A stretch of 56,795 bases of DNA from Thermomonospora catenispora. GTDB lineage: Bacteria > Actinomycetota > Actinomycetes > Streptosporangiales > Streptosporangiaceae. Where the stretch lies: positions 122,443-179,237 of the forward strand of contig NZ_RRYT01000009.1 in assembly GCF_006363815.1 (NCBI RefSeq), read 5' to 3'. Of the stretch, positions 4,890 through 42,861 are shown piece by piece. A program made the position numbers and the translations under genes. Position 1 is the first letter of the stretch, and each line of letters starts with the position of its first letter. Below the pieces are notes generated by a model. It was not told where the DNA came from. It saw nothing but the letters and a program-made list of their open reading frames with translations, and searched no databases.

Positions 4890-5109
4890 CCTGGTTTCCA
4901 GCGTGTTACCTTGCTGTTTCCGTGTCGAGAAGCATCCGGTGAAATCGAATTCGCCGTGCCATCCCCCGGTTCGGCCCATGGTTCGGCGGCACGCCCGGGC
5001 CCACGGCATGCCGAAGACACCGCCGCGGTCAATGTTTCCCCAGGAAAATCACCGGTTTCGCACGGAGAGCGCAAAGTGCGGGTCTATCGCCGCACGTAAC
5101 GGCTCGTTA

Positions 5110-5832
5110 ATGTTGCTGCACGTGTCGAGTGCCCAGGACCATCCCGCCGGCCCGGTGCGCGGCGTCCCCTCGGCCGGCCGGGACGCATCCCCCGAGCAGC
5201 CGCAGCCTCCGCCCCGCGGCGCGTCGCGGGACGAGCCCGCCGCGCCGTCCGCCGCGACCGACCCGGACCGGTCGGCGTCCGCGCGGGTGGCCGCCGAACT
5301 GGCCCGGCTGGCGGCGGCGATCGAACGCGAGCATGAGCGCGCCGCGCACCGGGAGGCCGTGATCGACCGTCTCCACCAGGACGTTCAGACACTGCGGCGC
5401 GGCGAGCTGCACGCGATGTTCGATCCGGTGCGCGCGGTGCTGTTCCGGCTGCACGACCTGACCGCCCGTGAGGCGCGCCGGTGGGCCGAGGACCCGCCCG
5501 ACGCGGTGCACGCCGCCGCGCTGCTGGCCGCGATCCGCGACGAGATCGCCGAGGCGCTGGCCCGCACCGGGGCCGAGCGTTTCGTCACCCGGCCCGGCGA
5601 TCGTTACGACCCTGTCCGGCATCGGCCGATCGACATCGAGCCGGTCGCCGACCCCGCGCTGGACGGCACGATCGTCAGCGTGTGCGCCGACGGCTTCGAA
5701 CGGGCCGGCCGGGTGATCCGCAAGGCCGAGGTGCGGGTGGGCCGGCACCGCGCCCCGGACGCCGACGGCGACGACGGCGACCCCGCGGCCCGTTCCTCCC
5801 CGCTTCCCCGATCAAGCAGTTCGAACAGGTGA
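5110..5832 (+). CDS. GrpE-like nucleotide exchange factor of the Hsp70/GTPase cluster
   Basis: A 240-residue protein that should act as the ADP-release factor for the Hsp70 encoded seven bases downstream. The first 55 residues are a disordered Pro/Ala/Glu-rich tail. Residues about 57-100 form a long charged coiled coil (VAAELARLAAAIEREHERAA). A helical part follows (FDPVRAVLFRLHDLTAREARRW). The C-terminal beta domain has the GrpE pattern DRYDPVRHRPI, then DGTIVSVCADGFERAGRVIRKAEVRVGR. ATG 5110 was chosen because it is the first start downstream of the intergenic stretch and is in frame with the conserved region. The Shine-Dalgarno sequence is poor, so a start slightly downstream (GTG 5122) is possible. 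It is diverged and is probably not the housekeeping GrpE. Confidence 0.78.
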   Translation: MLLHVSSAQDHPAGPVRGVPSAGRDASPEQPQPPPRGASRDEPAAPSAATDPDRSASARVAAELARLAAAIEREHERAAHREAVIDRLHQDVQTLRRGELHAMFDPVRAVLFRLHDLTAREARRWAEDPPDAVHAAALLAAIRDEIAEALARTGAERFVTRPGDRYDPVRHRPIDIEPVADPALDGTIVSVCADGFERAGRVIRKAEVRVGRHRAPDADGDDGDPAARSSPLPRSSSSNR

Positions 5833-5839
5833 GCTGAAC

Positions 5840-7423
5840 ATGGCTGTCTATGGGATCGACCTGGGAACCACCTACTCCTGCATCGCCTCCATCGACGAGG
5901 TCGGACGTCCCACGGTCCTGCGCAACCTCGAGGGCACCGACACCACTCCCTCGGTGGTCTACTTCGAGACCAGCGACAACGTGATCGTCGGGCAGGCCGC
6001 CAAGGACACCGCGGTGCTGGAGCCCGACAACGTGGTGAGCCTGATCAAGCGGGACATGGGCCGCGACATCACCTACCCGATCCACGAGTTCGGCTACACG
6101 CCCGAGGAGCTGAGCGCGTTCATCCTGCTCAAGCTGGCCACCGATGCGCGCACCACCACCGGGGAGGACGCCCGGGACGTGGTGATCACGGTGCCGGCCT
6201 ACTTCGGGGCGGCCGAACGGGACGCCACCCGCAAGGCGGGCCGGATCGCCGGGCTGAACGTGATCGACATCATCTCCGAGCCGATCGCCGCGGCCATCAC
6301 CTACGGGGTGCTCAACCCCGAGCAGGACCGCACGATCCTGGTGTACGACCTGGGCGGCGGCACGTTCGACACCACGGTGATCGCGTTGCGCGACGGCCAC
6401 ATCGAGGTGGTGTGCACCGACGGCGACCACGAGCTGGGCGGGGCGGACTGGGACGCCCGGATCGTGGAGTACCTGGCCGAGCGGTTCCGCGAGGAGCACC
6501 CCGACGCCGGCGATCCGCTGGACGACAAGCAGACCGAGCAGCAGCTGCGTCGCGACGCCGAGGACGCCAAGAAGGCGTTGAGCGTGCGCACCGCCCACAC
6601 CGTCCGGGTGATGCACGGCGGCCGGGCCGCGGCGATCGAGCTGACCCGGGAGAAGTTCGAGGAGATCACCAAGGACCTGCTGGACCGCACGATCGAGATC
6701 ACCGGCCGGACCCTGGCCACCGCCGCCGAGAAGGGCGTGACCGACTACGACGAGCTGGTGCTGGTCGGCGGGTCCACCAAGATGCCCGCGGTGGCCGCCC
6801 GGCTGGAGGCCGAGCTGGGCCTCAAGCCCCGGCTGCAGGACCCGGACCTGGCGGTGGCCAAGGGCGCGGCGCTGTACGCGTTCGAGGAGACCTACCGGCG
6901 GCTGCTGGCGGCCGGCGCCACCGAGGAGGCCGAGGAGATGGCGGCCAGGGCGGGCCTGTCGGCCGAGCAGCGGCGGCAGATCGCCGGCCGGCAGATCAAG
7001 ACGGTGGCCTCGCACGCCTTCGGGATCGTGGTGATGGACCGGGAGACCGGGACCGAGCACGTGGCGCACCTGGTGCACGCCAACGACGAGCTGCCGGCCT
7101 CGCACACCGAGGACTTCTTCACCGTCTACGACGACCAGACCTCCGCCGACGTGCGGGTGATGGAGCAGGCCGGCAGCGTGGAGTCGCCGGACCTGATGGA
7201 CAACACCGAGATCGCCACCGGGGTGATCAAGATCCCGCCGGGCAAGAAGGCCGGCTGGCCGGTCGAGGTCACCTTCGAGCTGGACGCCTCCGGGCTGCTG
7301 CACGTGACCGCGGTGGAGAAGGAGACCGGGGAGAGGCTGGAGCTGAAGGTCGACGTGGGCGGCATGTCGGAGGAGGAGGTCGAGCGCTCCCGCGCCGCCC
7401 TGTCCCGGGTGCAGGTGAGCTGA
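5840..7423 (+). CDS. Hsp70 family protein lacking the helical lid (DnaK-like)
   Basis: A 527-residue Hsp70 chaperone ATPase. The nucleotide-binding domain (1-350) is complete: GIDLGTTYSC at 5-14, ITVPAYFGAAERDAT at 116-130, YDLGGGTFD at 169-177 and LVGGSTKMP near 306-314. After an inserted charged helical segment (about 335-385, EEAEEMAARAGLSAEQRRQI) comes a substrate-binding beta domain (HAFGIVVMDRETG, then VTFELDASGLLHVTAVEKETGE) that ends at VQVS. The roughly 100-residue helical lid and C-terminal tail of housekeeping DnaK (about 610-640 aa) are missing, so clients may exchange rapidly or bind differently. It is translated right after the GrpE-like gene (GGTGAG upstream of ATG 5840). No DnaJ gene is in the window. 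This looks like a dedicated chaperone for the neighbouring GTPase proteins; that role is inference. Confidence 0.88.
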   Translation: MAVYGIDLGTTYSCIASIDEVGRPTVLRNLEGTDTTPSVVYFETSDNVIVGQAAKDTAVLEPDNVVSLIKRDMGRDITYPIHEFGYTPEELSAFILLKLATDARTTTGEDARDVVITVPAYFGAAERDATRKAGRIAGLNVIDIISEPIAAAITYGVLNPEQDRTILVYDLGGGTFDTTVIALRDGHIEVVCTDGDHELGGADWDARIVEYLAERFREEHPDAGDPLDDKQTEQQLRRDAEDAKKALSVRTAHTVRVMHGGRAAAIELTREKFEEITKDLLDRTIEITGRTLATAAEKGVTDYDELVLVGGSTKMPAVAARLEAELGLKPRLQDPDLAVAKGAALYAFEETYRRLLAAGATEEAEEMAARAGLSAEQRRQIAGRQIKTVASHAFGIVVMDRETGTEHVAHLVHANDELPASHTEDFFTVYDDQTSADVRVMEQAGSVESPDLMDNTEIATGVIKIPPGKKAGWPVEVTFELDASGLLHVTAVEKETGERLELKVDVGGMSEEEVERSRAALSRVQVS

Positions 7424-7436
7424 GCGAACGCGGGTC

Positions 7437-10031
7437 ATGGGCACCTCGTTCGACGAGGAGTACAAACGGGACGTGCTGGAGCCAGCGCGGGCGGCCGGCG
7501 ACCGGCCGCCCGAGGACCTGCGGGTGCGCTACCGGCTGACCGATCCGCTGACGCCCGAGCGGGTGGCCGAACAGGTCCGGCGGGTGCGGCAGTGCTGGCG
7601 GCGGTGCCGAGGCCAGCTGAAGTACCGCAAGCTGATCGACCGGCTGGAGGCCGAGCACCGGGAGCTGGCGCCGCTGTTCGCCGCGGCTGAGCGGGGCGAC
7701 CCGGGGCCGCTGAAGGAGCGGCTGCGCGGCGGGGCCGAGCGGGACGCCCGCCGGCTGGCGGACGCGCGGGCCCGGCTGGCCGACGCGGCGGGCGAGCTGC
7801 GCGCGGTGACCCCGGGCGAGCTGGAGGAGCTGGCGCGGGCCGCCGGGGTCGGCCGGGCGGAGCTGGAGCGGGCGGCCGCGGCCGACCGGATCGCGCTCCG
7901 CGAAGCCGACCGGCTGCCCGCCTCCCCGCCGTACGCGGGATACCGCAAGGTCCGGGAGGCGCTGGACGTGCTGGGGCACCGGCACCTGGCGGAGTTCCTG
8001 TTCGGGGACTCCCTGGGCGGCCCGATCCGGGTGCTCGGCGGGTTCGCCGCACCCGGGGTGCCCGGCGGGCCGGAGGCGCTGCCGCAGGCGGTGCAGGCCG
8101 CCGCCCGGCGGTGGGCGCGCCGCCCCCGCGACAGCTCCACCACCCATGCGAGCACGGTGCTGGCGGCGTTGCGGTCCGCCTCCCCGGACGACCTGATCTG
8201 CTACGACGTGGTGGCCCGGCTGCGGGAGCGGCGCCGGCAGCGGGCCTCGGAGCGGGCGCTGCTGCGGTATGCGACCCGGGAGCTGGGGATCGACCCGGCC
8301 GATGCGCACCGGCTGGTGTTCGCGGTGTCGCGGGAGGGCGGTCCCGGCGGCGGCCCGGCCGAGCGGCTGCGGGCGCTGCTGGACGCGGGCGAGGCGTACG
8401 CGGCGGCGGTGCTGGCCGACGCCCTGGACGAGGCGGGCGAGGAGGACGAGGAGGCGGCGCTGCTGGCGGACGAGGCGCGGCGACGCGTGGCGGCGGCGGT
8501 CCGGCTGCGGAGGGCCGCCGAGGAGCAGTCCGACCCCGACCGCGCCTGGGTGATGCTGGCGGACGCGCTGGAGCTGGTCCACGACCTGCCGGGGGCGCCG
8601 GACCTGCAGCGCCGGCTGCCGCCGCGTCCGGTGCCCCGGGCGACCGCCGCCGCCGAGGACGCCCGGGTGCGGATCTCCTGGGAGCCCAGCCCCTCCCCGG
8701 TCGGGGAGATCGGCTACGAGGTGGTGCGGCGGCGGGACCGGCCGCCCGAGGGGCCCGGCGACGGCGAGCCGATCCCCGCCGGGGAGAACGGCGCGGTGGA
8801 CCCCCGGCCGCCGGTGAACGCGCCGCTGTACTACGGCGTGATCGCCCGGCGCGGGGACGCCGCCGCGCCGATCGCCTGCTGCGGGCCGGTGGTGGTGCGG
8901 CCCGAGCCGCAGGCGGTGGAGCTGTCGGCCGGGGACGGCGCGGTGACCGGCCGCTGGCAGGTCCCCCCCGGTGCGGCGCGGGTGCTGGTCATGCGGGAGG
9001 GGCGTCCCGTGCCCGCGGAGCGCGACGGCTTCCGGGAGCGGGTGCCCAACGGGGTCGCCCACCACTACCGGATCTGTGCCGTCTACGTGGACGAGACGGG
9101 ACGGGAGACGGTCACGCCGGGGGTCGCGGTGACGGTGACGCCGCAGGCCCCGCCGCGGCCGGTGCACGAGCTGCGGATCGAGACCGACCCGGCCGATCCG
9201 CATCGGGTGCTGGCCTCCTTCCCCCAGCCCTCCGCCGGCACCGTCGAGTTCGTGCTGCTGGAGGAGCCGCCGCCGTGGCCGCCGGGGACGGTGCTGCCGG
9301 TCGCGGAGGTCCGCGCGGTCGCCCGGCGGGTGCCGGACACCCCCACCTCCCGCGGGTCGGCGCTGCGGCCGGGCGGCGGGGGCTGGCTGCTGGCCGTCAC
9401 GGTGGCCGGGCAGACCGCCGCGATCGGCGCCTGCCACCGCCATGTGAACCTGCCTCCCCCGACCGGGCTGGTGGCCGAGCGCCGCGGCGAGGAGCTGCAC
9501 GTCGGGTTCGACTGGCCGGACGGGGTCACCGAGGTGGAGATCGCCGTGCGGGACGAGACGGGCCGGCGGCGCACGGCCGTCAGCCGCGCCGCCTACGAGG
9601 CGGGCGGGGGCGTCCGCCTGCCCGTGCCGCCCGACGGGGCGGTCACGGTGGCGGTGGCGGCGGCCGGGATGCGCCAGGGCCGGCGGGTGACGGGCCCCGT
9701 CGTGGAGACGTCCGTCGCGGCCCGCGCCCGCGTCCGCTACGACGTGGAACGCTCGGGGCCGCCGTGGCGGCGCTCGCTGACGGTCCGGTTGAGCGCGGCG
9801 CGGCCGGTGCGGGTGGCGCGGCTGACGCTGGTCCGCCGCCTCGGGACGGTGATGCCGCAACGGCCCGGCGACGGGGAGGAGCTGGGCTCGTGGGAGGCGG
9901 TTCCGGTGCCCGGGGAGGTTTCGGTGCCCGCGCCCGCCGGGACGGGGCCATACTGGCTTCGCTGTTTCGCCGACGACGACGCCGTCGAGCTGATCGACCC
10001 CCCGATCCGCCGCCTGGAGCACAAGAGGTGA
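7437..10031 (+). CDS. Large protein with helical N-terminus and Fn3-like repeats, linked to Hsp70/GTPases
   Basis: An 864-residue protein without a known catalytic motif. Residues 1-100 are charged helices (DEEYKRDVLEPARAAGDRPP, then RVRQCWRRCRGQLKYRKLID) similar in feel to Hsp70-associated helical domains, but there is no HPD, so it is not a J-protein. Residues 90-390 are helical and rich in Ala/Arg/Glu. From about 400 to the end there are several beta-sandwich modules of fibronectin-III type (WEPSPSPVGEIGYEVVRR, RWQVPPGAARVLVMREG, ASFPQPSAGTVEFVLLEE, VGFDWPDGVTEVEIAVRDE), at least four. I recall similar proteins annotated with SaeA-type Fn3-like domains, but am not sure. It probably acts as an adaptor or client-binding partner. 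Its stop overlaps a GTG of the next gene. No signal peptide is seen, so a cytoplasmic location is likely. Confidence 0.75.
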   Translation: MGTSFDEEYKRDVLEPARAAGDRPPEDLRVRYRLTDPLTPERVAEQVRRVRQCWRRCRGQLKYRKLIDRLEAEHRELAPLFAAAERGDPGPLKERLRGGAERDARRLADARARLADAAGELRAVTPGELEELARAAGVGRAELERAAAADRIALREADRLPASPPYAGYRKVREALDVLGHRHLAEFLFGDSLGGPIRVLGGFAAPGVPGGPEALPQAVQAAARRWARRPRDSSTTHASTVLAALRSASPDDLICYDVVARLRERRRQRASERALLRYATRELGIDPADAHRLVFAVSREGGPGGGPAERLRALLDAGEAYAAAVLADALDEAGEEDEEAALLADEARRRVAAAVRLRRAAEEQSDPDRAWVMLADALELVHDLPGAPDLQRRLPPRPVPRATAAAEDARVRISWEPSPSPVGEIGYEVVRRRDRPPEGPGDGEPIPAGENGAVDPRPPVNAPLYYGVIARRGDAAAPIACCGPVVVRPEPQAVELSAGDGAVTGRWQVPPGAARVLVMREGRPVPAERDGFRERVPNGVAHHYRICAVYVDETGRETVTPGVAVTVTPQAPPRPVHELRIETDPADPHRVLASFPQPSAGTVEFVLLEEPPPWPPGTVLPVAEVRAVARRVPDTPTSRGSALRPGGGGWLLAVTVAGQTAAIGACHRHVNLPPPTGLVAERRGEELHVGFDWPDGVTEVEIAVRDETGRRRTAVSRAAYEAGGGVRLPVPPDGAVTVAVAAAGMRQGRRVTGPVVETSVAARARVRYDVERSGPPWRRSLTVRLSAARPVRVARLTLVRRLGTVMPQRPGDGEELGSWEAVPVPGEVSVPAPAGTGPYWLRCFADDDAVELIDPPIRRLEHKR

Positions 10032-10036
10032 CCCCC

Positions 10037-11299
10037 GTGGGCAGCCCGTCACGCATCGCCGCCAGGATCGCCCTGCCCGCCCTGCGCGCCGAGGACGAGG
10101 TCTGCTGCCCGTACTGCTTCGAGCGCGTGCCGCGCCGGCGGATCGCCTTCCGCTGCATGGGGCGGGCCGGGCGCGGCCAGGGCTGCGACCCGGTGCTGGA
10201 CGAGGAGCTGGCCGCCTACACCGGGTCGACGGCGGGCGCCTCGCTGCCGCCGGTCTTCGAGGCCGCGGGCCGCGGCGGCCGGGCCGACTGCCCGCACTGC
10301 GGGCGGACCACCGCCCGGCGGGTGTGCCCGCACTGCCACAACCCGCTGCCCCCGGCCTACTGCGACTCCCCCGGCCGGATCGTGGCGCTGGTGGGGGCCA
10401 AGAACACCGGCAAGAGCACCTATATCGCGGTGCTGCTGCACGAGCTGATGAACCGGGTCGGCACCGAGCTGGACGCCTCTCTGGTGGCCTGCGACGACCG
10501 CACCATCGACCGGTACAAGCGGGACTTCGCCCGGCCCCTGTACGAGGAGCGCCGACTGCTGCCGACCACCACCAGCGCCGCCACCGCCCCCCGCGAGCCG
10601 CTGGTGTACCTGCTGACGCGGACCCGCTCGGCGCGCCGGCTGCGGGCGCGGCTGCCGCTGGGCCGGGAGCGGGTCGCGTCGCTGGCGCTGGTGCTGTTCG
10701 ACACCGCGGGCGAGGACCTGCGCAGCCGGGACGTGCGGGATCTGCACCTGCGCTATCTGGAGGCGGCCGACGCGATCATCTTCCTGGTGGATCCGCTGCA
10801 GCTGCCGGGCGCCCGGACCATGGTCCGCGACGAGGCGCCGCCGCCCCCGCCGGCCGATCCGGACAGCGAGCCGATCAACGTGCTCGCCCGGGTCACCGAG
10901 GCGCTGCGGCGGCGGCACGGGCTGCGGCCGGACGAGCGGCTGCCGGTGCCGGTGGCGGTGGCGCTGACCAAGATCGACGCCTTGGCGCCGGTGCCGGCCG
11001 GGCAGTCCTGGCTGCACCGGGCCCGGCCGTCGCGCGGGGCGCTGGACCTGGACGATCGGGAGGCGGTGGACGCGCAGGTGCGCGGGCTGCTGCACGAGTG
11101 GGGGGCGGGACAGCTGGAGGTGTACCTGCGTCAGCAGTACGCCGAGCACGCCCTGTTCGGGGTGTCGGCGCTGGGCGGGACGCCCGTCCGGGGCCGGGTC
11201 GGTCCCGGCGGGGTGCGGCCGCACCGCGTGGAGGATCCGCTGCTGTGGCTGCTGCATCGGTTCGGGATGCTGGACGGAACGCGTGGGAACGAGGGCTGA
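10037..11299 (+). CDS. Zinc-ribbon GTPase (TRAFAC/DO-GTPase type), soluble partner
   Basis: A 420-residue predicted GTPase. Two zinc-ribbon segments lead: CCPYCFERVPRRRIAFRC at 23-40 and CPHCGRTTARRVCPHCHNPLP at 86-105. The P-loop is GAKNTGKST at 120-128. The Walker B/G3 element is LVLFDTAGED near 222-231. The G4-like motif is ALTKID near 305-311, so Asn of NKxD is replaced by Thr. The family is one of the paired GTPases found beside GAP1 proteins. GTG 10037 is preferred because AAGAGGTGA (10023-10031) sits five bases upstream; GTG 10028, which overlaps the previous stop, is possible. It is followed three bases later by the GAP1 gene, so the two are translationally close. It has no membrane segment, unlike the second GTPase of the cluster. 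Confidence 0.83.
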   Translation: MGSPSRIAARIALPALRAEDEVCCPYCFERVPRRRIAFRCMGRAGRGQGCDPVLDEELAAYTGSTAGASLPPVFEAAGRGGRADCPHCGRTTARRVCPHCHNPLPPAYCDSPGRIVALVGAKNTGKSTYIAVLLHELMNRVGTELDASLVACDDRTIDRYKRDFARPLYEERRLLPTTTSAATAPREPLVYLLTRTRSARRLRARLPLGRERVASLALVLFDTAGEDLRSRDVRDLHLRYLEAADAIIFLVDPLQLPGARTMVRDEAPPPPPADPDSEPINVLARVTEALRRRHGLRPDERLPVPVAVALTKIDALAPVPAGQSWLHRARPSRGALDLDDREAVDAQVRGLLHEWGAGQLEVYLRQQYAEHALFGVSALGGTPVRGRVGPGGVRPHRVEDPLLWLLHRFGMLDGTRGNEG

Positions 11300-11302
11300 G
11301 AC

Positions 11303-13645
11303 GTGGCCTGGCAGCTGCACTACACCTCGGCGGCGAGCGGGCCGACCGGGCGTGCGGGGTTCCAGTTCGTCGCCGAGACCCCCGGCCTGCCGCCGCAGGT
11401 CCGATCGGCGGTCGCCCCGCTGCTGACCTACCGGCCCCCTCCCCGGGCGCCGCTGTCGCCGGACGCCGAGGAGCTGGCGGCGTTCCCGGTGGCGCTGGCC
11501 TATGAGCGGTCGGGCGGCCGTGCGGTGCTGGTGCGGTCCCGCTACCTGGGGCGGGACTACTCGGGCCGGGAGGGCAACTTCTTCGCGCACGCGGTGGTGG
11601 CCGAGCCCGAGGAGCTGGAGGGCCTGCGGCCGATCGAGCTGTGGGGGGCGGGTTTTTGGACCGACCGGCCCGCCGAGGGCGATCTGGCGGCGCTGGAGGA
11701 GCTGGATCCGGGCGAGGGCGTCTGTCCTCAGGAGCTGGCGGACCGGCTGGCCGAGGAGGGCTCCTACCGGCTGCTGGCCGCCCTGGTGGACGCGGCGGTG
11801 ACGGCGCTGGACCGGGGCCACGGCCGGGTGGTGCTGGTCGGCGCGGACGTCGAGCCGATCGTGCGCTGGATCGCGGTGCTGTCGTACTCGCTGCCGGTGA
11901 CCGCGGCGGCCCGGCTGTCGTTCACCACCTACAGCGCCGATCCCTGCGGAGCGCTGCACCGGGTGGTGGGGACGACCCCGGACGTGTGGGCGGCGGTGCA
12001 CCGCGACGAGCCGGCGTTCTTCGTCGACGAGCCCGCCGATCCTCCCGCCGCGGGAACGGGCAGCCGGTTCGCCCGGACGGTGGCCGAGTGCTGGCGGGCC
12101 CGTGACTTCGCCGGGCTGGACGCGCTCGGGGAGCTGGTGGCGGTGCAGCTGGCCGACGGCGACCGGCTCGCCGGGGCGGAGGGGGCGCCGCTGGCGCAGG
12201 TGCTGGACCGTGCGGCGACGCTGCTGGCGCTGTGCCGGGGCGCCGATCCGGTGTCGGCCGAGGAGGAGGCCGCCGCGGCGGACCTGCTCACCCGGTTCGG
12301 CGCGCGGGTGCCCGAGTGGGTGTGGGCGGAGCTGGTGCCGTCGTTGCCGAGGGCGGGCTTCGATCTGGCGCTGGCGATGCACCGGTGGGCGCGGCGGACG
12401 GAGGCGGCCGAGGTCGCCGACCGGTGCGCGATCCGCTGCGTCATGGCGGCGCTGGAGGACCCCTCCCTCGGCGGCCGGCTGCGCGAGGTGCGGCTCTCCC
12501 CCGACGCGACGGTGCGGCTGGTCCCCGAGGTGGCCGGGGCCGTGGAGCGGGCGACGACGTTGACGGCGGTGGGGCGGCTGGTGGCGCTGGCGGCGCGGGC
12601 GGGCGTGGAGCCTCCCGTGGAGACGGTCCGCTCGGCGGCGGCCCGTTGCGCCCGCACCGCGGTGGACGACCTGCCGGAGGCGCTGGACGGCGTCCCCTCC
12701 CGGTGGCGGGAGCGCATCATCGAGGGCGCCGTCGCCGCCTTGGCGGAGGCCGGGCCGGAGGAGCTGCCGCGGCTGCTGACCGATGAGGTCTGCGACCTGC
12801 TGCAGGCCCGGGACTGGTCGGCCGCGCCGGCCGTGGGGCTGCGCGTGCTGGCGTCGGCGGGCCGCCGCCATCGGGACCGTCGGGTGGACGTCACCGGGGC
12901 GTTGCTGCGGCTTGAGGGGGTCGCCTCAGAGGAGGTGGACCGGGTCCTCGCCGAGGTGTGGGCGGTGCCGGCGAGCGCCGCCGAATGCACGGCGCTGCTG
13001 GAGGCGTTCGACGAGGCGGTGCCGGCCCGCCCGGCGCTGGCGGCCCTGCCGTCGCGGGCGTTCCGGCAGGCGGCGCTGGAGGGCGACGAGGCGCTGGAGG
13101 ATCCGGCGCTGCTGCGGATGGCCGGGCAGGTGCTGGCGGCCTTCCCCGCCGACCATGCGGCGTTCTGCGACGCCTCGGTGCTGCTGGAGTACGCCAAGAC
13201 CGTGGGGGCGGTGCAGGCCGAGGCGGCCGCGGCCGGGCTGGAGACGATGCACGCGACGACGGGGGCGACGCCCCAGGTGCGCAGCGGCGTCTTCATCGAG
13301 GCGGCCGACCGGCTGGCCAGGCGGGACACCCGGTTCCGCGCCGCGGTGCTGATCGCGGTGTCCGCGCCGGTGCGCGCCCGGCTGGCCGAGCGCTGGACCC
13401 GTCCGCGCGCCCGGGGACTGCTGGGCCGGTCCAAGCTGAGCATCGGCCCCCGGCGCGAACTGGTCGAGGTGGTGCTGCGGATGCGGCTGGCGGGGGTGCG
13501 CGAACCCCGGCTGGAGTCGTGGGCGCGGAAGACGGCCGGCGGCCGGCTGGCGACCCGGCGGCTGGAGGGGCGACTGGCCGATCCGGCGCTGCGGGCCGAG
13601 CTGCGCCGGCTGCTCGGCGAGGGCGCCGCCGGGCGGGAGGAGTGA
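11303..13645 (+). CDS. GTPase-associated protein 1 (GAP1)-like protein
   Basis: A 780-residue protein that matches the GAP1 N-terminal domain: QLHYTSAASGPTGRAGFQFV at 4-23, then YLGRDYSGREGNFFAHAVV near 82-100 and FWTDRP near 119. A middle region (SYSLPVTAAARLSFTTYSAD near 200) follows, then a long helical repeat-like C-terminal part (about 290-780), which could be a scaffold. No catalytic triad or NTP-binding motif was recognised. It sits between two GTPase genes, which is the defining context of the family. The name refers to association; GTPase-activating activity is not shown. GTG 11303 follows the previous stop by three bases with GAGGG upstream, and its own stop is four bases before the next ATG. 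The role is inferred as effector or organiser of the two GTPases. Confidence 0.8.
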   Translation: MAWQLHYTSAASGPTGRAGFQFVAETPGLPPQVRSAVAPLLTYRPPPRAPLSPDAEELAAFPVALAYERSGGRAVLVRSRYLGRDYSGREGNFFAHAVVAEPEELEGLRPIELWGAGFWTDRPAEGDLAALEELDPGEGVCPQELADRLAEEGSYRLLAALVDAAVTALDRGHGRVVLVGADVEPIVRWIAVLSYSLPVTAAARLSFTTYSADPCGALHRVVGTTPDVWAAVHRDEPAFFVDEPADPPAAGTGSRFARTVAECWRARDFAGLDALGELVAVQLADGDRLAGAEGAPLAQVLDRAATLLALCRGADPVSAEEEAAAADLLTRFGARVPEWVWAELVPSLPRAGFDLALAMHRWARRTEAAEVADRCAIRCVMAALEDPSLGGRLREVRLSPDATVRLVPEVAGAVERATTLTAVGRLVALAARAGVEPPVETVRSAAARCARTAVDDLPEALDGVPSRWRERIIEGAVAALAEAGPEELPRLLTDEVCDLLQARDWSAAPAVGLRVLASAGRRHRDRRVDVTGALLRLEGVASEEVDRVLAEVWAVPASAAECTALLEAFDEAVPARPALAALPSRAFRQAALEGDEALEDPALLRMAGQVLAAFPADHAAFCDASVLLEYAKTVGAVQAEAAAAGLETMHATTGATPQVRSGVFIEAADRLARRDTRFRAAVLIAVSAPVRARLAERWTRPRARGLLGRSKLSIGPRRELVEVVLRMRLAGVREPRLESWARKTAGGRLATRRLEGRLADPALRAELRRLLGEGAAGREE

Positions 13646-13649
13646 GCCG

Positions 13650-15380
13650 ATGCCCGTGCTCTGGGTGCTGCCGCTCCTGGCGGCCTGGGCGGTGCTCGCG
13701 CTCCTCTTCCCGGTGGTGTTCACGGCGACCGTGACGGTCGCCACGGCGGCGGCGCTGGGGTTCGCCTACCTGCAGGCGTGGCGGACGCTCACCCCGACCA
13801 GCGCGAAAGGCCCCTCGCCGGTCCCGGCCCCCGAGCTCGCCTACCGGCACTACCTGCTGGAGCAGGTGTGGCGCGACTGGTGGGCGGTGGCGCGGACCGC
13901 GGTCCCGTGGACGTGGCGGACGGGCCGTGCGGCGATGACGCGGATGACGCGGACGCTGCTGGGCGGGCTGTGGGGGTTCTTCCTGCTGCCGCTGTGGCTG
14001 GCGCTGTATCTGGGGGTGGCGGCGGCGGTGCTGCCCGCCTCGCTCCTCGGGGTGCTGCTGACGGTCTGCTACGGGCTGGTCGTGGCGGCGGGGCTGGCCG
14101 GGTGGCTGGCGTGCGTCGGGGTGCTGTGGCTGATCGAGCGGGCGTTCATGGCGTACGGGCGCATCCTGCAGACCTGCCCGCATCCGTTCTGCTACGCGAA
14201 GATCGCGCTGCCGGTGTACGAGTGCCCCGGCTGCGGCGCCCGGCATCGCCGGCTGGCGCCGGGCACGGCGGGGGCGTTCCGGCACGTGTGCCGGTGCGGG
14301 ACGCGGCTGCCGACCACGATCCCGCTGGGCCGCTACCGGCTGACCGCCTACTGTCCGCACTGTCACGGGCGGCTGCCGGAGCGGATCGGCCGGGTGCGGG
14401 TGGAGCCGCTGCCGTTCGTGGGCGGCCCGGCGGCGGGCAAGACCACGTTCATGTTCCTGGCGATCCGGGCGCTGCACGCGCGGGCGCGGGCGGCCCGCGG
14501 CAGGCTGGCGTTCGTGGAGCGGCTGCACGCGCAGGCGTACGCGAGCGCGATGCGGGAGTTCGAACGCGGCGGGCGGCTGGCCAAGACGGGGCCGGAGCTG
14601 CCGCTGGCGACGATGGTGGACGTGGAGCTGCCCGGCCGCAGGCACCGCATCCTGTACCTGTTCGATCCCGCCGGGGAGCACTTCACCGGGGCCACCGAGG
14701 TGGAGTCGCTGCGCTACCTGGACCACGGGGAGGCCCTGCTGTTCGTGGTGGACCCGTTCGCGCTGCCCACGGTGCGGCGGGCGCTCACCGAGGAGGAGCT
14801 GGCCGTGGTGGAACGGGCGGCCCCCTCCTCGGAGGAGGATCCCGCCGACACGCTGCAACGGGTGCTGAACGAGCTGCGCACCCGGCCGGACCGGGGCCGG
14901 CAGCGGCGGGTCGCGGTGGTGGTGACCAAGACCGATCTGCTGCGCGAGACGATGATCGGCCGGTCGCTGACGCGGGAGCAGGACGCCGGGGACGAGACCG
15001 GGAGGTCCTCCGGCGCGGCGGTGCGCCGCTGGCTGGAGGAGGTGGGCCTGGGGAACGCGATCCGGGCGCTGGACCAGCTCGCGGGCGAGGTGCGCTGCTT
15101 CGGCTCGGGGCTGGACACCGACCCGGCCGAGGTGGCGGATCTGCTCGGCTGGGTCACCGGGCTGCCGGTGGACGGCCCCACCGAGCCGGCCCCGGCCGAG
15201 GAGGTGCCGGGTACGGCACCGCTGCGAGACCCCTGGCCGGTGCGGGGCCGTGAGGACGGCCGGGTCCCCGCCGCCTACCAGGCGGGCCGGTGGTCGGTCT
15301 TCGCCGGCCTGGTGGCGCTGGGCGTCGCCGCGCTGGCGGTCGGCGTCGGCCGGGGCGTGCACGCCCTGCCGTGGCTGTGA
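13650..15380 (+). CDS. Membrane-anchored zinc-ribbon GTPase (DO-GTPase type)
   Basis: A 576-residue protein with a GTPase domain in a membrane frame. Hydrophobic segments lie at about 3-40, 104-135 and 137-163, and a last one at about 553-572. Zinc-ribbon pairs lie at 176-238 (TCPHPFCYAKIALPVYECPGC, CRCG, CPHCHG). The P-loop is GGPAAGKTT at 258-266. LYLFDPAGEHF near 335 is the G3 counterpart, with Pro in place of Thr, and VVTKTD near 428 is the G4-like motif. The zinc ribbons and the GTPase domain between the membrane segments should face the cytoplasm. A GGGAGGAG Shine-Dalgarno sequence precedes ATG 13650. It ends the six-gene set and probably places the complex at the membrane. Confidence 0.83.
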   Translation: MPVLWVLPLLAAWAVLALLFPVVFTATVTVATAAALGFAYLQAWRTLTPTSAKGPSPVPAPELAYRHYLLEQVWRDWWAVARTAVPWTWRTGRAAMTRMTRTLLGGLWGFFLLPLWLALYLGVAAAVLPASLLGVLLTVCYGLVVAAGLAGWLACVGVLWLIERAFMAYGRILQTCPHPFCYAKIALPVYECPGCGARHRRLAPGTAGAFRHVCRCGTRLPTTIPLGRYRLTAYCPHCHGRLPERIGRVRVEPLPFVGGPAAGKTTFMFLAIRALHARARAARGRLAFVERLHAQAYASAMREFERGGRLAKTGPELPLATMVDVELPGRRHRILYLFDPAGEHFTGATEVESLRYLDHGEALLFVVDPFALPTVRRALTEEELAVVERAAPSSEEDPADTLQRVLNELRTRPDRGRQRRVAVVVTKTDLLRETMIGRSLTREQDAGDETGRSSGAAVRRWLEEVGLGNAIRALDQLAGEVRCFGSGLDTDPAEVADLLGWVTGLPVDGPTEPAPAEEVPGTAPLRDPWPVRGREDGRVPAAYQAGRWSVFAGLVALGVAALAVGVGRGVHALPWL

Positions 15381-41657: not shown

Positions 41658-41706
41658 CCGCACGGCCCCGGCCGGCGGCGCGCCGGCCCCGACGGAGGGA
41701 AGGGTG

Positions 41707-42861
41707 ATGCAGGCCGACGAGGAACGGCTCAAGCGCTGGCGGATGGTGCTCGGCGGCGGGGACGCCGACGGCACCGGGGTGGGCCTGAGCGGGGACGACG
41801 CCGCGATGGACGCCGCCCTGCAGGCCGTGTACGAGCCGCGCCGATCCGACGGCAGGCGCGGCGCCGGGCTGGGCGAGTCGGCGCCGCGGCTGGCGCGGTG
41901 GCTCGGCGACATCCGCGCCTATTTCCCGTCCTCGGTGGTCCGGGTGATGCAGAAGGACGCCCTGGAGCGTCTCGACCTGACCCGCCTGCTGCTGGAGCCG
42001 GAGCTGCTGGACGCCGTCGAACCCGACGTCCACCTGGTCGGGGCCCTGCTGTCGCTCAACCGCGTCATGCCCGACACCGTCCGGCGGTCCGCCCGCGCCG
42101 TCGTCCGCACGGTGGTCGCGGAACTGGAGGACCGGCTGGCCCACCGCCTGCGCTCCGCGGTGACGGGCGCGCTGGACCGGGCGGCGCGCACGCACCGCCC
42201 GCGCCGCCCCGCCGACGTCGACTGGCACCGCACCATCCGCGCCAACCTGCGCCATCACGTTCCCCGGTACGGCACCGTGATCCCCCAGCGCCTGGTCGGC
42301 TTCGGCCGCAGACGGCAGACCGTCGAACGCGAGGTGGTGCTGTGCGTCGACCAGAGCGGCTCGATGGCGGCCTCGGTGGTCCACGCCGGGGTCATGGGGT
42401 CGGTGCTGGCCTCGATGCCCACGCTGCGCACCTCCCTGGTCGTCTTCGACACCGCCGTCGTCGATCTCACCGACCGGCTCTCCGATCCCGTCGAGGTGCT
42501 GTTCGGCGCCCAGCTCGGCGGCGGCACCGACATCAACCGCGCCCTCGCCTACTGCCAGGGCCTCATCACCCGCCCCGCCGACACCGTCGTCATCGTGATC
42601 AGCGACCTGCACGAGGGCGGCGATCGCGACGAGATGCTCAAGCGCGTCGCGGCCATGACCGCCGCCGGTGTTCAGGTGATCGTCCTCCTCGCCCTGTCCG
42701 ACGAGGGCGCCCCCGCCTACGACCACGCCAACGCCGCGGCGCTGGCCGGGTTGGGCGTCCCCGCCTTCGCCTGCACGCCCGACGCCTTCCCCGACCTGAT
42801 GGCCGCCGCCCTGGAGCGCCGCGACCTCACCGAATGGTCCGAACGCCACCTGTCATCGTGA
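41707..42861 (+). CDS. VWA domain-containing protein (MoxR partner)
   Basis: A 384-residue protein. The N-terminal part (1-190) is helical. The C-terminal von Willebrand A domain (about 205-375) has a complete MIDAS motif: Asp215, Ser217 and Ser219 in CVDQSGSMAASVV, the later Thr in GGGTDINRALAYC and Asp in VIVISDLHEGGD. It should bind Mg and a partner protein with MoxR. GTG 41704 precedes ATG 41707 and could also be used; GGAGGGAAGGG lies upstream. It is the last gene of the five-gene plus-strand cluster that starts at 35035. VWA/MoxR pairs work as chaperone-like systems for metal insertion or protein assembly in known cases (such as CoxS/CoxD or BatA/MoxR); which applies here is unknown. 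Confidence 0.9.
   Translation: MQADEERLKRWRMVLGGGDADGTGVGLSGDDAAMDAALQAVYEPRRSDGRRGAGLGESAPRLARWLGDIRAYFPSSVVRVMQKDALERLDLTRLLLEPELLDAVEPDVHLVGALLSLNRVMPDTVRRSARAVVRTVVAELEDRLAHRLRSAVTGALDRAARTHRPRRPADVDWHRTIRANLRHHVPRYGTVIPQRLVGFGRRRQTVEREVVLCVDQSGSMAASVVHAGVMGSVLASMPTLRTSLVVFDTAVVDLTDRLSDPVEVLFGAQLGGGTDINRALAYCQGLITRPADTVVIVISDLHEGGDRDEMLKRVAAMTAAGVQVIVLLALSDEGAPAYDHANAAALAGLGVPAFACTPDAFPDLMAAALERRDLTEWSERHLSS

Follow-up and report, generated by a model that had tools for sequence, protein, structure and literature searches.

What does a bacterium gain from a gene cluster that places an Hsp70 and its exchange factor beside two GTPases, a GAP1 protein and a large fibronectin type III (Fn3) protein? 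The cluster lies in a 56,795-nucleotide stretch of the genome of Thermomonospora catenispora (contig NZ_RRYT01000009.1, positions 122,443 to 179,237 of the forward strand), which as a whole is referred to here as the window. It consists of six consecutive genes on the + strand spanning window positions 5122-15380 that encode, in order, GrpE, Hsp70, the 864-residue Fn3 protein, DO-GTPase 1, GAP1 and DO-GTPase 2. Judging from the sequences it is a GAP1-N2 DO-GTPase system of the HSP70/GrpE theme, a kind known since 2020. On the strength of a predicted structure and a conserved arginine, we suggest that GAP1 proteins may be bacterial DENN-type GTPase-activating proteins (GAPs) with Arg89 as their arginine finger, which would place a eukaryotic class of regulator, together with a Rag/folliculin-like membrane GTPase pair, in bacteria and couple it to an Hsp70 without J control. 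We put the chance of this being right at slightly below even.

The class was described from genome comparison by Kaur, Burroughs, Iyer and Aravind (eLife 2020, PMC7159879). As far as the relevant sections of that paper go, HSP70/GrpE is the second theme of the GAP1-N2-type DO-GTPase systems, accounting for about 14% of such neighbourhoods; the FNIII protein is typically fused to DnaJ or TPR, a subset has a second HSP70 without the peptide-binding domain, and roles in conflict were proposed from the gene neighbourhoods. Of the traits of the theme, the cluster has zinc-ribbon DO-GTPases, a GAP1 protein that combines GAP1-N2 with GAP1-M and is encoded next after a DO-GTPase, an FNIII protein, HSP70 and GrpE. 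The initial annotation of this stretch stated that GTPase/GAP1 sets are known from comparative genomics; the combination with Hsp70/GrpE is itself already in Kaur et al (2020). A literature search at the level of listings found no experimental study of the class; one paper (PMC11237479, 2024) mentions DO-GTPase once. The genes and sites are as follows.

5084..5113, + strand: promoter-like conserved block, with a CTATC element (5084-5088) and a TAATGT -10-like hexamer (5108-5113)
5122..5832, + strand: dedicated GrpE, nucleotide exchange factor of Hsp70 (PF01025, E 8.9e-10, C-terminal part; start from upstream conservation)
5840..7423, + strand: dedicated Hsp70, 527 residues (PF00012, E 2.3e-109)
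7437..10031, + strand: Fn3 protein, putative scaffold, 864 residues (model, fibronectin matches, hydropathy)
10028..11299, + strand: DO-GTPase 1, soluble (PF19993, E 7.1e-10; alignment with 19 homologues)
11303..13645, + strand: GAP1, comprising GAP1-N2 and GAP1-M (PF20013, E 1.3e-43; PF20014, E 9.4e-23)
11567..11569, + strand: codon of GAP1 Arg89, candidate arginine finger (conservation and position in the beta4-beta5 loop)
13650..15380, + strand: DO-GTPase 2, membrane-anchored (PF19993, E 7.5e-20; alignment, hydropathy scan)

The genes are separated by 7, 13, -4 (an overlap), 3 and 4 bases which, with all six on the same strand, bears out the single operon-like unit that the initial annotation had described. 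The Pfam matches likewise confirm its dedicated GrpE/Hsp70 pair and its GAP1-like protein, and the PF19993 matches, CxxC pairs and hydropathy agree with its two zinc-ribbon GTPases, one soluble and one in the membrane.

GAP1 and the two DO-GTPases

The AlphaFold2 (AF2) model of GAP1, with a predicted local distance difference test (pLDDT) score of 94.7, comprises a DENN-like module (residues 1-295) followed by an alpha-helical solenoid (residues 296-780). The best structural matches to the N-terminal part are DENN modules, which are eukaryotic GTPase regulators, and among the matches listed that cover residues 1-295 all are DENN proteins, headed by the Rab guanine nucleotide exchange factors (GEFs) DENND1A and DENND1B. 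The resemblance is one of predicted fold; a sequence-profile search of the PDB with GAP1 gave no DENN protein up to E 10.

Arg89 is retained in all 86 non-gap rows of an 88-row alignment and is the only arginine to be conserved at 95% or above (the alignments, A4 with 70 rows and A5 with 88, were thinned by similarity). In the model it sits between the strands formed by residues 73-84 and 90-100, i.e. in the beta4-beta5 loop. According to the relevant part of a preprint (PMC12803157), DENN-type GAPs have a conserved arginine in the loop joining longin strands beta4 and beta5, and, given a longin reading of the model, the placement of Arg89 agrees with this, though it was checked after the DENN match. 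The interpretation of GAP1 as a DENN-type GAP appears to be new here, neither DENN nor longin being present in the main text of Kaur et al (2020; PMC7159879).

Both GTPases score above the PF19993 cut-off and carry CxxC pairs at the N-terminus. DO-GTPase 1 has its zinc-ribbon CxxC pairs, the P-loop GAKNTGKS and the motifs DTAGED and TKID, with no transmembrane (TM) segment by hydropathy; its profile found no match among PDB sequences at E 0.01. DO-GTPase 2 has a zinc ribbon, the P-loop GGPAAGKT and the motifs DPAGEH and TKTD, and is hydrophobic over residues 1-41, 102-163 and 546-573, which fits TM segments at both ends of the protein, the number of which the hydropathy scan does not resolve. 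In one relative (L066:12095-13878, + strand, genome G004) the second GTPase gene is found in two overlapping frames, the result of a frameshift that is either real or from the assembly.

Hsp70, GrpE and the Fn3 protein

The system Hsp70 resembles the host DnaK most closely in its nucleotide-binding domain, where the two are 46.6% identical over 350 aligned positions, and has diverged in the beta part of its substrate-binding domain (SBD-beta; 27.2% over 125 positions). Residue counts were made on 118 of 122 open reading frames (ORFs), those at locus ends or outside 480-620 residues being excluded; the 118 rows derive from 117 loci with some records in duplicate, and hold 102 distinct sequences. 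Eight checked positions of the ATPase domain, for which we assumed the accepted roles, are retained in every row. The pattern at the J-protein interface is the reverse. The equivalent of DnaK R167 is Asp or Asn and that of N170 is Ser, Pro or Ala in all 118 rows, with neither the arginine nor the asparagine kept in any; the equivalent of T173 is Ile or Val in 117, the threonine being kept in one. The linker, DVLLLDVTP in the host DnaK, is swapped for another conserved sequence, with LLL in none of the 118, and past the point where the DnaK lid starts there are just 11-12 residues as against 134 in DnaK. R167, N170, T173 and linker residues D388-L392 of DnaK are among those named for J-protein binding or stimulation in the part of PMC4022485 that concerns them. 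Since the J-docking residues are lost while the ATPase residues are intact and a GrpE gene adjoins, the system Hsp70 has probably kept a GrpE-assisted nucleotide cycle and has probably been freed from J-protein control. No account of the loss of J-docking residues and lid was found in the sections of Kaur et al (2020) that deal with these systems, and a J-independent, lidless Hsp70 appears to be new here.

The same genus also has another, more distantly related version of the six genes (genomes G002 and G003), with a further Hsp70 gene close by (L067, 4006-5619 and 18538-19998; L068, 14086-15693 and 17588-19171). In L068 the J-docking residues are missing from this additional Hsp70 too; that of L067 runs out of the locus and was not counted. 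A further odd Hsp70-type protein with a long C-terminal part (L003, G000:C43:209332-211362) lies in the same genome as the cluster, on a different contig from that genome's only GAP1 match.

The 864-residue protein has no Pfam match at E 1. Its assignment as the big Fn3-type protein of the initial annotation is upheld by the relatives, of which 11 of 37 match fn3, by its profile, which matches fibronectin among PDB entries (E 1.2e-9), and by the AF2 model (pLDDT 94.0, predicted template modelling score 0.49), for which fibronectin and other Fn3 proteins fill the lists of structural matches. Residues 1-392 are all-helical in the model (7437-8612), and the rest of the chain, starting near residue 394, forms about five Fn3-type beta-sandwiches (about 8616-10028). 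As hydropathy indicates no TM segment, the protein is probably cytoplasmic.

Systems in Firmicutes are said to carry DnaJ-FNIII fusions. Individual scans of 17 Fn3 proteins gave no DnaJ match, and among the families listed for the 37 relatives, at least 25 families in number, TPR_19 appeared weakly in two of the relatives. A J-domain remnant at the N-terminus was considered and rejected, there being no such match and no N-terminal HPD: the motif occurs in 11 of 135 Fn3 proteins, at residue 160 at the earliest. Inspected by eye, the modelled helices do not resemble a J-domain. A regular-expression scan of 17,874 ORFs, run without a positive control, found no J-like pattern either, and with the 17 Fn3 proteins this is consistent with the absence of a J-protein recorded in the initial annotation.

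One locus joins parts that resemble the two proteins. At L165:9377-12247 (- strand), in a genome that is probably of Streptomyces (genus g52), a single frame links a stretch resembling the Hsp70 ATPase (PF00012, E 1.5e-11; phosphate-loop motifs altered, by eye), a proline-rich stretch and a part that matches the system Fn3 profile (138 bits, without a Pfam fn3 match), and GAP1 and both GTPases adjoin it. This fusion-like frame is a direct hint, from one case, that Hsp70 and the Fn3 protein may act together.

Start site, constancy and spread

The initial annotation placed the start of GrpE at ATG 5110. This codon is not conserved among relatives, although the block that it overlaps, TTA(A/G)GGT..ACTGCAC-GTG, is shared by related genera. 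Of 117 upstream regions, 56 matched a search pattern for the block, and almost all of these have TTA(A/G)GGT or TTAATGTT ahead of the GTG (the matches at L150 and L184 are chance, and L100 and L101 were printed out of register). As ATG 5110 is unconserved and GTG 5122 lies 8 bases past the TTA(A/G)GGT-type element, GTG 5122 is the more likely start. With the GTG 8 bases after the -10-like hexamer, the cluster mRNA would be leaderless. The CTATC element upstream of the hexamer is unlike the common -35 box and is possibly an operator or the site of a special sigma factor. Searches with HAIR (strict and relaxed) and CIRCE patterns and with two sigma-factor patterns gave nothing in any of 85 upstream regions, in keeping with the lack of a heat-shock operator noted earlier for the chaperone pair.

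When named genomes were searched with the soluble GTPase as query, 282 matches were obtained, of which the best 80 were kept, a set biased to close relatives. These loci come from Actinomadura, Thermomonospora, Sphaerisporangium, Actinoallomurus, Nonomuraea, Acrocarpospora and others, including one metagenome-assembled genome labelled Micromonosporaceae. The gene order, judged by gene ends, is the same in 80 of 80 as far as the contig runs; 71 loci are complete, counting L100 in which two genes are split over two frames, and nine are cut by contig ends. The six families that the initial annotation wished to see checked for adjacency thus stay together, and their recurrence across genera indicates that the set is more than chance. 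The protein distances of the six correlate at 0.82-0.975 over 93 loci (of 107, after removal of duplicates), i.e. the genes have co-diverged. The ratio of nonsynonymous to synonymous rates (dN/dS) is below 1 for all six genes in eight comparisons and lowest for Hsp70, though the method, NG86 on GC-rich genes, supports only that the values are below 1. GrpE, GAP1 and the Fn3 protein diverge faster than Hsp70.

GAP1-N2 was found in 152 of 341 genomes of the window's family, which we take to be GTDB Streptosporangiaceae, as against eight of 396 in a sample of the phylum (own genome included), and the system-type Hsp70 (E 1e-110 or better) in three of 297 genomes of another family, probably Streptomycetaceae. 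The soluble GTPase is near-universal in Actinomadura (62 of 65 genomes, in pieces in two of them); the remaining three are assemblies of 570-800 contigs, one with a weak match of the size of the second GTPase's and two with none. Within flanks of a few kilobases, what we take to be an aldolase-like gene is upstream in 44 of 84 loci, and Pfam identifies an ACT protein in 42 and a downstream phosphotriesterase in 33. At E 1e-3, relatives of DO-GTPase 1 were absent from 50,697 phage records and present in two of 72,556 plasmid records, both Rhodococcus plasmids, at 27% identity.

The set is not without exceptions. Among 48 testable loci from the window's family, 41 have Hsp70 within the cluster, so that the pair is not usually elsewhere; the 48 were picked by hand, several from a single genome, and do not include four more that are truncated at the end of a contig. 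Of the seven loci without Hsp70, L178 has only GAP1 and L076 only the GTPases and GAP1. The other five (L180, L196, L197, L198 and L202), all of genus g74, retain the Fn3 protein, both GTPases and GAP1 and are without Hsp70 and GrpE, L198 also holding a 29-bit match to the Hsp70 profile without a Pfam match. Among eight g74 genomes searched at E 1e-40, the system Hsp70 was found in one (G135) and the other seven each gave one match of the size and score of DnaK. The GTPase core can therefore stand without Hsp70/GrpE. The g74 Fn3 proteins are longer (1242-1511 residues) or matched only C-terminally: those of L180, L197 and L202 retain the N-terminal region, while in L196 and L198 the match starts at profile position 378 or 352.

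Elsewhere in the window, positions 41704-42861 (+ strand) encode a CoxE-like von Willebrand factor A (vWA) protein (PF05762, E 1.6e-56), presumably of the MoxR-vWA chaperone type.

Proposed mechanism, alternatives and known systems

The gene content, its conservation and the losses in Hsp70 are direct observations, and so are the position and invariance of Arg89; the fold resemblance is that of a model. From these we infer a pairing of the GTPases, the chemistry of the GAP, an Hsp70-Fn3 contact, the direction of the switch and the process controlled. The membrane and soluble DO-GTPases would pair in the manner of Rag GTPases on the inner side of the membrane. GAP1, as a DENN-like module on an alpha-solenoid, would dock on the pair, with Arg89 speeding GTP hydrolysis as an arginine finger and so setting the pair to 'off'. 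The cytoplasmic Fn3 protein may be the scaffold or sensor that gathers the GTPases, GAP1 and Hsp70. With its ATPase residues intact but no J-docking site, canonical linker or lid, Hsp70 would have ceased to be a general chaperone and would use ATP to clamp or switch one dedicated partner, which is probably the Fn3 protein, and the dedicated GrpE would reset it. Taken together, this J-independent form of the HSP70-theme system, in which Hsp70 is linked to a GTPase pair at the membrane and a DENN-like GAP turns that pair off, seems to us to have an even chance of being correct.

Monomeric DENN proteins of eukaryotes are mostly regarded as GEFs, and with the Rab GEFs DENND1A/1B as its best matches GAP1 might be an exchange factor in which Arg89 is structural. 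It would seem unlikely, however, as Arg89 is the sole arginine of such conservation and sits in the loop that marks DENN GAPs, and the DENN GAP Avl9 also resembles DENND1B, as described in the part of the preprint that treats it (PMC12803157). A likeness to DENN that arose by chance, with GAP1 being a new fold and a structural adaptor with no catalytic role, is a somewhat more serious concern, if still a doubtful one; the matches listed over residues 1-295 would then all be DENN proteins by coincidence, and the position of Arg89, albeit examined after the DENN match, would agree with DENN by coincidence too. It is least probable of all that Hsp70/GrpE is an ordinary extra chaperone that, aided by the host DnaJ, folds the GTPase complex or holds on to it. 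While the intact ATPase residues and the GrpE-type exchange factor would suit such a role, the J-docking residues, linker and lid are altered or gone and none of the 85 upstream regions has a heat-shock operator.

The initial annotation had suggested surveillance for a cue such as phage, until which Hsp70 might keep the GTPase assembly closed, and conflict roles were proposed for the whole class from gene neighbourhoods in the relevant sections of Kaur et al (2020; PMC7159879). In an anti-phage or other conflict system the Fn3 protein would sense the invader, the GTPases would switch and the assembly or an effector would contain the infection, and the faster divergence of GrpE, GAP1 and the Fn3 protein than of Hsp70 could be read in this way. 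The remaining evidence runs against it and leaves it improbable: the near-fixation in Actinomadura, the recurring metabolic neighbours, the dN/dS values, the lack of a separate effector-like gene within the six and the near-absence of relatives from phage and plasmid records, along with PADLOC matches that are weak and partial only (best E 7.4e-4). Phage surveillance is therefore left unsupported. The recurring chromosomal place and the vertical pattern favour core physiology, so that the system would look more like basic equipment of one branch of these bacteria than like a mobile defence island.

If GAP1 is a DENN-like GAP, this would be the first mechanism for the class and would bear on the origin of the eukaryotic DENN regulators; a eukaryotic-style off-switch for GTPases would be surprising in bacteria. 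The system Hsp70 would be a natural Hsp70 that works without J-proteins yet with GrpE, and thus useful for understanding how the Hsp70 ATPase is triggered.

The cluster shares with the systems in the relevant sections of Kaur et al (PMC7159879) the zinc-ribbon DO-GTPases, of which one probably has TM segments at either end, GAP1-N2/M, FNIII, HSP70/GrpE and an actinobacterial host. It differs in that the FNIII protein shows no DnaJ domain, with a TPR signal that is at most weak in relatives, and in being near-fixed in Actinomadura where the class is called mobile. Compared with the DnaK/GrpE pair, the ATPase domain is similar and there is a GrpE-type partner, but the SBD-beta has diverged, the lid is missing, the linker is another, the J-docking residues are replaced, and no DnaJ gene or heat-shock operator was detected. 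Residues 1-295 of GAP1 are like the DENN modules of DENND1A/1B, DENND10, folliculin-FNIP2, C9orf72-SMCR8 and Avl9 in predicted fold, in the order of a longin-like part, an alpha/beta lobe and helices, in the beta4-beta5 loop arginine and in acting beside GTPases. Unlike these, GAP1 is bacterial, has no detectable sequence similarity to them, is joined to a long alpha-solenoid and partners DO-GTPases rather than Rab, Arf or Rag, its activity being a prediction. In bacteria, MglA/MglB is a Ras-like GTPase with a roadblock GAP. The resemblance to this pair, as far as the part of PMC3521125 on it goes, lies in a bacterial GTPase with a longin-related regulator, but MglB is a roadblock-domain protein whereas GAP1 resembles a full DENN module and acts beside a different GTPase family.

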